Position numbers and translations under genes: made by a program
Shown here: positions 32,341-36,000 of the stretch, in pieces
Layout of the letters: each line of letters opens with the position of its first letter
How positions within the stretch are numbered: position 1 is the stretch's first letter
The notes under the pieces: model-generated
The model's input: only the letters and a program-made list of their open reading frames with translations
Told to the model about the DNA's origin: nothing
Databases searched by the model: none
Source of the DNA: a virus
DNA length: 36,727 nucleotides
IMG/VR virus record: IMGVR_UViG_3300020172_002273
Location: 1-36,727 of that record
Strand: one strand, 5' to 3'

Positions 32341-32829
32341 TTAGTATACTAATATACATCTATCCATTCTTAACGAACAAGTGATAGATGCAATATCATC
32401 TCTTGAATAATCAAGTTCGTTAAAGTTTAAGTCGGTAATGAAAGTTCCTTGAAGAATCCATTTTTCAACCACAACCCCCGTTGGGTCTAACATTTCTAAT
32501 TCAATATCTTTCTTATATCCAGCCGCGTAACCCATACGACCTGTAACTGATTCAGCGTGTAGACGGAACCACTCCATCAATGCTTGAGCCGCTGAAGGTC
32601 CGATAGGGTCTTTGAAGGTTACTCTTATCTCATTCCATTCAAATCTACCAGCAACGTATGTTGATGTGTTGATAAAAGGAATTGCAACTGAATTAATTTT
32701 TGCACTTGGTCTAGCACTTGATGTTACATACCATTCATTTATTCCCAATGAAGAGGGAAATCTTAATATGAATCGGTTAACTCTTTTCGGTTCGTAAGGA
32801 ACCGGCATTTTCATTAATAAATCTGCCAT
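32341..32829 (-). CDS. 19: Tail tube protein, T4 gp19-like
   Basis: A 162-aa tail tube subunit (T4 gp19 is 163 aa) that stacks in hexameric rings inside the sheath and forms the DNA channel. Family features include the N-terminal KMPVPYEPKRVNRFILRFPS (7-26), the central WNEIRVTFKDPIGPSAAQAL with MEWFRLHAESVTGRMGYAAG (72-111), and the end LDPTGVVVEKWILQGTFITD followed by LNFNELDYSRDDIASITCSLR. These are characteristic of T4-type tubes. It lies just after the sheath gene, separated by a 318-bp non-coding island, and is followed by its own terminator. A GATATTTATA motif is located 41 nt before the ATG; there is no Shine-Dalgarno. Confidence 0.95.
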   Translation of the reverse strand: MADLLMKMPVPYEPKRVNRFILRFPSSLGINEWYVTSSARPSAKINSVAIPFINTSTYVAGRFEWNEIRVTFKDPIGPSAAQALMEWFRLHAESVTGRMGYAAGYKKDIELEMLDPTGVVVEKWILQGTFITDLNFNELDYSRDDIASITCSLRMDRCILVY

Positions 32830-32870
32830 GTCAATATTTGTTTTTTATTTTTTTTATTGTTAATCTTTCT

Positions 32871-32878
32871 TATAAATA
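32871..32878 (-). promoter_or_regulatory. GATATTTATA motif before the tail tube gene
   Basis: On the minus strand AGGATATTTATAAGAAAG lies 41 nt before the tube ATG. It follows a terminator and a long gap, so a promoter is required near here, and the distance suits a normal leader. This is one of the best candidates for a late promoter of the phage. Confidence 0.5.
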
Positions 32879-32952
32879 TCCTGTATATGAAAAAGAAAAA
32901 AAATCTTATTCATTACTTGATAATGTCAAATTTTTTTCGTATTTTTTCCATA

Positions 32953-33019
32953 CTAGTACTAGATGCTAGTAAATATAGAACTAGACTAGATAAACTAGAA
33001 TTAAAATAACTAGAACTAG
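32953..33019. repeat. Cluster of eight CTAG words (ACTAGA/ACTAGT units)
   Basis: CTAG occurs at 32953, 32959, 32966, 32981, 32986, 32995, 33010 and 33016, mostly as ACTAGA or ACTAGT, in 67 bp. Spacings are irregular (5, 6, 7, 9 and 15 bp). CTAG is palindromic and is generally under-represented in bacterial and phage DNA, so the cluster stands out. A ninth copy lies at 32259-32262 ahead of the gp26-like gene. It could be an iteron-like binding array; the protein is unknown. Confidence 0.6.
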
Positions 33020-33097
33020 AATACTGGAACATATACTGGGTAATTTATAATTTTATTTGTTTTATATTTAGTGTTTCCCTGTTTCACACTACAATTG

Positions 33098-33113
33098 TGT
33101 TCCACGTGAAACA
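33098..33113. promoter_or_regulatory. parS: parS-like centromere site, exact 16-bp match
   Basis: TGTTCCACGTGAAACA is identical to the 16-bp parS site first described for Bacillus subtilis ParB (Spo0J), a sequence conserved across most bacterial phyla. An additional half-site TGTTTCAC lies at 33080-33087 in the same orientation as the left arm, 18 nt from the right arm GTGAAACA. No parA or parB gene lies in the window, so any binding would come from the host ParB or from a phage protein encoded elsewhere. The match is seen directly; its function is inferred. Confidence 0.7.
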
Positions 33114-33119
33114 TAAAAT

Positions 33120-33147
33120 AGGGAGGGTTTCCCCTCCCCTTTTTTTA
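33120..33147. terminator. GC-rich hairpin after the sheath gene
   Basis: Stem GGGAGGG (33121-33127) and CCCTCCC (33132-33138) with a 4-nt loop, GAAA on the minus strand. After the stem the minus strand reads TATTTTAT, a modest T tract. The plus strand reads CTTTTTTTATT, a better one. It begins right at the sheath stop, so it probably ends sheath mRNA, but it would also stop plus-strand transcripts coming from the island. Confidence 0.8.
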
Positions 33148-36000
33148 TTAGATATTATCGAATGACGCCCCTGTTGGTGTGATTATGAATTCAACATCGA
33201 TGAATTCAAGAGCCCTTGTAGGTTTGATATAAATTTTACCTCTTAGTGTATTTGCATCAATGTCTTCTGGGTCATTGGATACCGTTACACGGAATTCATA
33301 CAAACCTCTTTCTCTCTTAATTGCGTCCAATATTGGATTTACCAATCTTAAGAACTCGTTACGAACTTGGTCATCGTTTTGTTCAAACAACAACCTTATT
33401 GCTACCGCTGAAATTAATTTTCTCGCTCTTAACAATAATCTTCTTACGTTAATTCTATCCAAAGCTGATTCACGAACTTGAAGTGTTTTGTTACCCCAAA
33501 TTATGGTACCAGTATCTGCAAATGTTGCAATAGGATTAATTCTAGCCTTATAAAGGTCATCTCTCTCATCCAATGTTAATTTCTTGTACGCTTTGATTGA
33601 ATTAACCAAACCTCTTGAATAACCCGCCACCGCGAACCAAGGGAAAGATACATTATCGGTTAGTGCAATGTTTCTCAAAACCTCACCTGTTGGTGGTAAA
33701 TAAAGTTGGGTCGCGTTATCGGCATCTCTCACTTGAATCCAAGGCCAGTAAACCGCTGAATAGTTACTATCAATCGCAACACCATCCAAAGCGTCTATCA
33801 CCTCGTCTGCTGTACCATAATTTGGCGATGATATAACATACAGTGAATCCGCTCTGTCTTCCTCAATCATATCGATTGCATAAGATGTTAATGAACTGTG
33901 GTCGTAAAAGTTAATACCTGGTGTTGCAAAAATGTTTACATCCACCGCTTCAGGGTTTGAGAAAGTGTCGATACCTTGAGTGTAGGCGTAGTAGTCAGAG
34001 TTTCCTGACACCGTACTAAATACACCACCATTATTAGTATTACCACTTGTGTAAGTATTTTTACCAAAGATGAATCCGTCACCATATGTTCTTACGTTTC
34101 TATAGATATCCCAACCATCAAATCCACCATTTGCCGCAAATGTAAATTTACGATAGTTAATGTTTTCTAGTAAATTATTTAAACCTGTTTGACCTTCTAA
34201 ATCATACGATGTAGTTAAGAAGGTTGTTCCTGTAAGGGTAGACGCGTTTGTCGACAAGTGAAAACCTTTTGTTGTTCCGGCCGCCGAAGTTCCTTTGAAT
34301 TTGAATAAGTCTCTGTCGTATGTTACCATACCAACAGGAGTTGCTAAACCGAAATATGTTCTTCTTACTTTATCACCTGAAGATAATATTGGTGTTCCGT
34401 TTGCCTCATATCCTGTAGTTTGACCCGCGGTATAGAAATCTGTTTTATACATTACAGAACCTAAAGTTGATGAACCGAAAGATGTGTTATTTGTGAATCC
34501 TTTGAATCCAGCGGGATATGCGTCTGTTGGGTGATTGTCAGACATCACTAACATTATATAACGTGAACGTAATTCATATTCACCGTCAGAAGTACCCACT
34601 TTTTTAGCTACATAACCTGGTAAATCAGGATTCATTGAACATCTTGAATATTTTTCAAGTACAACTAAGTTTTCATCGGTATCATTGAAGTCACGAACAA
34701 TTAAATCAAATTCACCCGTGTTTACATCAATGTTGATAATTGATATTTTCACTTCATAGTTTGCAGAATCACCATCAGAAACAGTAACAACTTCAAACAA
34801 ATCGGCCACTTCACCACCTCTCACCTCAGAAACAACTGTTGGTGTCATTGGGGTGTCCCAAGAATATTTAAAGTTATTATTTTCAGTTTCATAAACTTCA
34901 GTCAAACTAAGACCTCTAATTAAACCTAATTCATATGCTCTTGCTAAATAATTTGGATATGCTTCATAAACATAAATAGGAATTTCACTTCTTAATCTGT
35001 CGTAGACATCAGAACCAAATACTTTTGTTACGTATTTTGAAGAAGAGGAGTCCATACTACAAGTATATGTTTTAGCTCCACTTGTTGAACCTGTAACATT
35101 AACTGTAAATTCCGCTAACGGGTTTGTTGTAATCCCTGTTCCTGATATTTGGAAATTAACGTTTGATGTGGTTTCTAAAGTCAGAGTCTGACCAACATAT
35201 GAACCTCTTGGTCTAAACGCTAAAACAACCTGACCATCGTATTCTGTATTTAGTGTACTATTGTAAGTGTATTTTGTTACATCAAATTTTGTGGTACCAC
35301 TGTTGTATACAAATAGATAAGAGTATACTTGAGTACCGGCAGTGTTTACTAAAACATTATACCATTCTTTGTTGTTGAAGTTTGACGCATTGTCTAATCC
35401 AGTCAATGGTGAAACTTCTTCCAATGTTGATGTTAGTGATGTTGTACCCGAAGTAGGAACATTACCCATGACAAACCATTGTCCGTGATTTGAGGATGTA
35501 TTACCACTAAAGTTAGATACAATATAATTAGTGATGTAATTACCGTCTACAGATATTTTATCTGATAATTCACTGTAAATTGTACTTGCTGTAATGGTAG
35601 CCGTGGTTGCGGACATAGATAATCCCGTGGTCGTACCACTTAAAGAACCCAAAGTCACCCCACCAATTGTTTGCACACCATAAGTTTTTTGTGGTAAGTA
35701 ACCTGTTAACCCTAATATTCTTGTTACAAATAACTGATTTGATTCCTCTAAATACGCTTTAGCGAAATAAGGTAATTCAAATTTTGGATTGTTGTTACCA
35801 TCTTTCAGTGGAGTTGTTCCCCCAAAATATGACCTAAACTCGTCAAAATTTGTTATTAATACAGGTTCGAAGGCGGGACCTTTTAAGGTTTCACCCACCA
35901 AACCTAATGTGCTCACTCCAACACTTTGTGCTACGAATGTTAAGTCTTTTTCAGATGTGTATACACCTGGAGATACAAAAACTCTATTTGATGTTGCCAT
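33148..36000 (-). CDS. 18: Contractile tail sheath protein, T4 gp18-like
   Basis: A 950-aa sheath subunit, far longer than T4 gp18 (659 aa). The N-terminus FVSPGVYTSEKDLTFVAQSV (8-27) and GLVGETLKGPAFEP (33-46) is the classic sheath start. The C-terminal core is clear: PWFAVAGYSRGLV, KLTLDERDDLYKARINPIAT, IIWGNKTLQ, INVRRLLLRARKLI and LRGKIYIKPTRALEFIDVEF. Residues of about 100-330 are Ser/Thr/Gly-rich beta sequence (SGTTTGLSMSATTATITAS), as are parts near 540-660, and are probably surface domains inserted in the conserved core. It opens the shaft operon. Upstream is a 137-bp divergent region with a GATATTTAT motif about 40 nt before the ATG; there is no Shine-Dalgarno. A hairpin terminator follows directly. 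Confidence 0.95.
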   Translation of the reverse strand: MATSNRVFVSPGVYTSEKDLTFVAQSVGVSTLGLVGETLKGPAFEPVLITNFDEFRSYFGGTTPLKDGNNNPKFELPYFAKAYLEESNQLFVTRILGLTGYLPQKTYGVQTIGGVTLGSLSGTTTGLSMSATTATITASTIYSELSDKISVDGNYITNYIVSNFSGNTSSNHGQWFVMGNVPTSGTTSLTSTLEEVSPLTGLDNASNFNNKEWYNVLVNTAGTQVYSYLFVYNSGTTKFDVTKYTYNSTLNTEYDGQVVLAFRPRGSYVGQTLTLETTSNVNFQISGTGITTNPLAEFTVNVTGSTSGAKTYTCSMDSSSSKYVTKVFGSDVYDRLRSEIPIYVYEAYPNYLARAYELGLIRGLSLTEVYETENNNFKYSWDTPMTPTVVSEVRGGEVADLFEVVTVSDGDSANYEVKISIINIDVNTGEFDLIVRDFNDTDENLVVLEKYSRCSMNPDLPGYVAKKVGTSDGEYELRSRYIMLVMSDNHPTDAYPAGFKGFTNNTSFGSSTLGSVMYKTDFYTAGQTTGYEANGTPILSSGDKVRRTYFGLATPVGMVTYDRDLFKFKGTSAAGTTKGFHLSTNASTLTGTTFLTTSYDLEGQTGLNNLLENINYRKFTFAANGGFDGWDIYRNVRTYGDGFIFGKNTYTSGNTNNGGVFSTVSGNSDYYAYTQGIDTFSNPEAVDVNIFATPGINFYDHSSLTSYAIDMIEEDRADSLYVISSPNYGTADEVIDALDGVAIDSNYSAVYWPWIQVRDADNATQLYLPPTGEVLRNIALTDNVSFPWFAVAGYSRGLVNSIKAYKKLTLDERDDLYKARINPIATFADTGTIIWGNKTLQVRESALDRINVRRLLLRARKLISAVAIRLLFEQNDDQVRNEFLRLVNPILDAIKRERGLYEFRVTVSNDPEDIDANTLRGKIYIKPTRALEFIDVEFIITPTGASFDNI

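Follow-up and report, generated by a model that had tools for sequence, protein, structure and literature searches.

The window analyzed here, a stretch of 36,727 nucleotides of viral DNA from a T4-like phage, carries genes for a tail sheath and a tail tube protein on its minus strand, separated by a 318-base non-coding spacer. Within this spacer, the exact palindrome TGTTCCACGTGAAACA is found at positions 33098-33113 of the plus strand, the minus strand reading TGTTTCACGTGGAACA. The region contains the following features:

32341-32829, minus strand: tail tube gene, 162 aa (phrog_4542, E=9.7e-25)
32865-32879, minus strand: ATATTTATAAGAAAG, conserved in alignments of relatives, candidate promoter of the tube gene
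32916-32949, minus strand: block GGAAAAAATACGAAAAAAATTTGACATTATCAAG, conserved in alignments of relatives
32950-33041, no strand assigned: CTAG/CTGG repeat array, iteron-like, separate from parS; eight CTAG in the spacer
33080-33087, plus strand: extra half-site TGTTTCAC in direct orientation, 18 bp from the palindrome start to start
33098-33113, plus strand: parS-like palindrome TGTTCCACGTGAAACA, kept in relatives and identical to host mnmG-flanking sites
33120-33139, minus strand: hairpin resembling an intrinsic terminator of the sheath gene; on the coding strand it immediately precedes the palindrome
33148-36000, minus strand: tail sheath gene, 950 aa (phrog_23, E=1e-59)

Read along the coding strand, the sheath stop codon is followed by the hairpin (33139-33120), the palindrome, about 270 non-coding bases and the tube ATG. 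The hairpin is terminator-like on the plus strand as well (33121-33138). A first-pass annotation of this DNA had described the palindrome as an exact bacterial parS site in non-coding DNA, with about 2e-5 exact copies expected by chance. The sequence is indeed present, occurs only once in the window and equals the 16-bp inverted repeat TGTTNCACGTGAAACA that characterizes chromosomal-type parS, the site through which bacterial chromosomes are segregated. It lies between the open reading frames (ORFs) at 32341-32829 and 33148-36000, its non-coding status being assigned from ORFs and not from annotation. Our own estimate from base composition, ~1e-5 for the exact 16-mer, agrees with the earlier one; if up to three mismatches are allowed, 0.62 matches are expected by chance (mean of dinucleotide shuffles). 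The annotation had further placed an extra half-site 18 nt from the right arm. The half-site TGTTTCAC exists, but it is located to the left of the palindrome, 10 bp from the left arm; alignments limit it to the closest clade, in some members of which its orientation is reversed. An accumulation of half-sites along the genome of a 288-kb relative was considered and rejected, as their number hardly departs from that expected under a maximal-order Markov model.

Upstream of the tube gene, the blocks at 32916-32949 (TACGAAAA...TTGACATTATCAAG) and 32865-32879 (ATATTTATAAGAAAG) are as conserved as the palindrome itself. The position of ATATTTATAAGAAAG and its resemblance to T4-type late promoters make it a candidate promoter of the tube gene. 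An Rfam search of the window gave no match at gathering score, and a search for tRNAs in the window found none.

Two protein searches of viral contigs yielded about 160 relatives, and conservation was counted over the 156 loci at which the surroundings of the sheath or tube gene could be read. A palindrome with at most two mismatches to NGTTYCACNNGRAACN was found in 113 of these loci, representing 67 distinct contexts and 39 distinct 16-mers. The first-pass annotation had named absence or mutation at this position in all close relatives as grounds for giving up its reading, and the scan of relatives yields the opposite. The usual position is the non-coding sheath-tube spacer, behind the sheath terminator and 234-338 bases before the tube ATG, and an automated scan detected a hairpin followed by a T-rich stretch ahead of the site in 43 of the 67 contexts. 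In a second lineage (L170-L173, L176, L180, L182, L188-L190, L195), the sheath-tube spacer is devoid of the palindrome and the site is located behind the tube gene instead; in most of the loci inspected it again follows a hairpin resembling a terminator, and in L188 the site lies inside such a hairpin. Part of the family, for example L223, L230, L237, L247, and L255, has no recognizable palindrome. Other late spacers are without it. Searches of the whole records of the 232-kb and 288-kb relatives identified one perfect site each, the sole further place in either record carrying two mismatches and being chance-like; with a looser pattern, a second match elsewhere was found in a few records. In one relative with an enlarged sheath-tube spacer (L174), two copies of TTTTTCACGTGGAACA are situated 46 bp apart, ~200-260 bases behind the sheath gene.

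The best-kept part of the element is its left half, GTTYCAC, in which position 5 is C or T. The center drifts: the central dinucleotide is GT, GA, AT, AA, GC, or GG, so that many relatives replace CACGTG. Twelve cultured phages of Bacteroidota and Rhodothermota, two of them T4-like, lack the site even when one mismatch is allowed, and it is therefore not a general feature of such phages.

A perfect inverted repeat directly after a terminator, kept in many relatives and with one pair altered on both sides, could also be read as an RNA hairpin, serving as a second part of the terminator or as a processing signal. An RNA stem should favor G-U changes. On the coding strand, however, C-A changes are as common as T-G changes or commoner (7 vs. 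6 at stem pair 5/12; 9 vs. 2 at stem pair 3/14), and the RNAalifold covariation term of the palindrome is only -0.22. The compensatory and G-U-tolerant changes on the transcribed strand that would mark an RNA hairpin were thus not found. In addition, the palindrome is identical to a chromosomal DNA site, and extra half-sites were identified next to it in both orientations in 10 of 67 contexts by a heuristic scan, an arrangement suggestive of protein binding on DNA. The RNA hairpin reading was rejected on these grounds and is considered very improbable; judged by stem changes without G-U bias, the palindrome behaves as a DNA site.

Complete partition cassettes are known from phages. In the ten phage contigs searched, which comprise the window and nine relatives of up to 335 kb, neither PF02195 (ParB_N) nor PF17762 (HTH_ParB) gave a match, in line with the earlier remark that no ParB gene is nearby; these records are contigs of unstated completeness, which bounds the negative results for ParB. 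In the 288-kb relative, host ParB gave no phmmer match and host ParA a single weak one (12.7 bits). The arrangement of a ParABS cassette with ParB encoded in cis was accordingly not found in any of the ten contigs, and a phage-encoded ParB was rejected, as neither the Pfam and TIGR models nor a phmmer search with the host protein detected one; given contigs of this kind, a phage ParB, or a diverged protein sharing its specificity, retains a low probability.

The protein that reads the site might instead be supplied by the host. NrdB of the phage shares 73-79% identity with NrdB proteins that come mostly from Flavobacteriales genomes, with a few from Cytophagales and others, which suggests Flavobacteriales as the likely host group. 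A ParB with an HTH_ParB domain was present in all seven such Flavobacteriales-type genomes searched, and GTTYCACNNGRAAC was matched in 101 of 101 sampled Flavobacteriaceae genomes. Hosts have only few sites per genome; among the sites listed for Flavobacteriaceae, most are of the GTTCCACGTGGAAC type with a GT center, and many are paired at a distance of 1.9-2.0 kb. Ten host loci were read: in nine the site lies beside or around the gene for MnmG (gidA), a protein of 620-623 aa whose identity was confirmed by TIGR00136 at two loci, and in the remaining one it adjoins the gene that usually follows mnmG. A broader set of Bacteroidota genomes gave the same picture. The phage palindrome thus has the same sequence as the origin-region sites of its likely host, the host group being taken from NrdB similarity.

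A minority of Flavobacteriales genomes carry mnmG-adjacent palindromes with CACGAG, CACAAG, or CACGGG in place of CACGTG. Among 398 Flavobacteriales genomes searched, 19 sites with altered centers were found in 15 genomes, and 10 of the 19 (centers GA, AA, and GG) are no more than about 310 bp away from mnmG, compared to ~0.002 expected per site; these comprise two CACGAG, two CACAAG, and six CACGGG. All three centers are common to the phage family and the host mnmG-flanking sites. Of the other two altered phage centers, AT and GC, the chromosomal search covered only GC, which was not found at host mnmG. The degeneracy shared by phage and host sites is the main reason for proposing that one protein, host ParB, reads both.

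A phage protein that has gone unrecognized and has converged on parS specificity, e.g., a replication initiator acting at an origin in the spacer, would offer a different explanation. The CTAG/CTGG array next to the palindrome could represent iterons of such an origin, or else a regulator array. CTAG occurs with a family median of 4 per spacer compared to 0.22 expected, the array is present in the spacers of most relatives, and in the 288-kb relative the sheath-tube spacer is the only genome position with at least four CTAG per 200 bp. The asymmetric conservation of the palindrome would likewise suit a phage protein. However, the array is kept in some lineages without parS and is missing in the lineage that has parS behind the tube gene; because each occurs without the other, array and parS are separable. 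Moreover, the palindrome shares its altered centers with host chromosomal sites, and no clear switch in GC skew is seen at the site. A replication origin identified by GC skew was rejected for the 288-kb relative, where skew is dominated by a gene for a repeat protein. This gene, at 107949-124367, is an ORF of 5,472 aa with extreme GC skew that consists largely of TPTNTPTNTVTP repeats. Taken together, a converging phage protein appears rather improbable.

The search for parS was extended to viral contigs at large, in the IMG/VR collection. Exact TGTTCCACGTGGAACA gave at least 120 matches in viral contigs, compared to 2, 54, 17, and 11 for four control palindromes, three of which have the same base composition; the control TGATCCACGTGGATCA keeps the CACGTG core with changed arms. 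Matches were clustered by context, edges being left out, before comparison with ORFs. Among the matches listed, a location outside ORFs of at least 120 aa was found for 46 of the 91 parS clusters but for only 1 of the 52 clusters of the pooled controls (Fisher p = 1.2e-10). This enrichment, together with conservation of the phage site in 67 contexts, leaves a chance match without function with a negligible probability, even though some relatives have lost the site.

Most of the parS-bearing viral loci belong outside of the T4-like family, only two matching its sheath or tube. Chromosomal contamination was tested by tblastn with one Flavobacterium MnmG, ParA, and ParB each, which matched none of the 214 viral loci with parS at E 1e-5. 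Contamination from close hosts was rejected on this basis; given the Flavobacterium queries, the test speaks to close and not to distant hosts. Among the matches listed, 49 contigs with a parS outside ORFs were 20 kb or longer; none of them passed the TIGR00180 cut-off for ParB, and three gave weak matches. Exact parS sequences outside of genes thus occur, among the matches listed, in many unrelated viral contigs, almost all of them without a detectable ParB.

The favored explanation, given a probability of roughly 0.6, is that the phage carries a true parS of the chromosomal type but neither a ParA nor a ParB gene, and that a Flavobacteriales-type host supplies the ParB that reads it, most likely for a use in cis. 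Recruitment of host ParB to the phage's own DNA, which the first-pass annotation had listed as one of several possible meanings, probably takes place and is the most economical reading; its support is good but indirect, consisting of the conservation of the site, its identity with mnmG-flanking sites, the shared degeneracy, and the fact that no phage ParB was found. The four functions that the annotation had put forward for the site, namely positioning, titration, tail-gene control, and a plasmid-like carrier state, are hypothetical. In this model, host ParB would load at the phage parS as a CTP-dependent clamp, spread over neighboring phage DNA and link the phage genome to the ParA and nucleoid machinery of the host. 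Binding, clamp spreading and function in cis are inferred, the likeliest use being the positioning, retention, or organization of the phage chromosome in the cell. A position between a terminator and the next promoter should be where transcription disturbs ParB loading least. Two observations favor the cis role: the site is single-copy in each genome, and it is retained where it has moved to another spacer.

Several observations are at odds with a parS. The central CACGTG is substituted in many relatives, and conservation is stronger in the left half than in the right, a difference that a strictly symmetric ParB site would not be expected to show. The site is also missing from some relatives and from the 12 cultured phages, and it is not obvious why a lytic phage would need partition.

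If host ParB is recruited, it might also act as a local regulator or roadblock, with clamps spreading in the AT-rich spacer to silence, insulate, or counter-silence a late promoter. In most relatives the site is located upstream of the tube ATG and behind a terminator, and the second lineage has it upstream of the start of the next gene. ParB-type regulators exist in VirB and KorB, plasmid-encoded clamps that load at parS-like sites and act on transcription at a distance (PMC10653881, PMC11790492); no such gene was found in the T4-like phage. However, the downstream gene differs between lineages, and a role limited to the tube gene is made less likely by the lineage in which the site stands behind that gene. 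Furthermore, there is one copy per genome, and other late spacers are without a site. Such a regulatory role is regarded as possible but unlikely. Alternatively, replicated phage genomes could serve as a decoy that titrates ParB off the few host sites and thereby blocks chromosome segregation. Hosts with few sites could be outnumbered by many phage copies, but titration is weakened because relatives carry a single copy per genome, and arrays would make a better decoy; we consider this scenario a poor candidate.

The proposed host ParB recruitment resembles known systems only in part. Chromosomal parS sites (ParB/Spo0J) share the sequence TGTTNCACGTGAAACA and the non-coding location, and the palindrome and its center variants are those of Flavobacteriales mnmG-flanking sites; the phage site differs in being a single copy on a lytic-looking phage, with no ParA or ParB found in cis and a center that often is not CACGTG. 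Phage and phage-plasmid ParABS systems, such as those of P1 and of extrachromosomal mycobacteriophages (PMC7157519), likewise place a partition site on phage DNA, but they have their own partition genes, none of which were found in the T4-like phage. Pseudomonas ParB binds the half-sites GTTCCAC and GTTTCAC in vivo, whereas no such binding was observed for B. subtilis ParB (PMC10419367). These half-sites correspond to the best-conserved part of the phage element; those of Pseudomonas aeruginosa are single half-sites scattered over the chromosome, in contrast to one conserved phage palindrome. In a further study, CFP-ParB assembles on an engineered lambda-parS once the DNA has been injected, and the phage goes on to replicate and lyse the cell (PMC13190303). 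ParB on injected phage DNA is the common element, although both the parS and the ParB of that laboratory reporter were provided experimentally. In the open-access literature searched, partly in excerpt, no earlier description was found of a lytic-type phage that lacks ParB but naturally carries a conserved parS of the host type.

More broadly, it may be proposed, tentatively and at slightly less than even odds, that many lytic-looking phages carry an orphan host parS and use the host ParB clamp, without partition genes of their own, to position or organize their genomes; the T4-like phages of Flavobacteriales, whose site variants would track the sequence changes that host ParB accepts, would be the clearest case. 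If host ParB does load at these sites, phage DNA would be tied to the segregation machinery of the host, which would have consequences for the location of large-phage replication and for the persistence of such phages in slow-growing bacteria, and the phage sites would provide a natural probe of ParB specificity.
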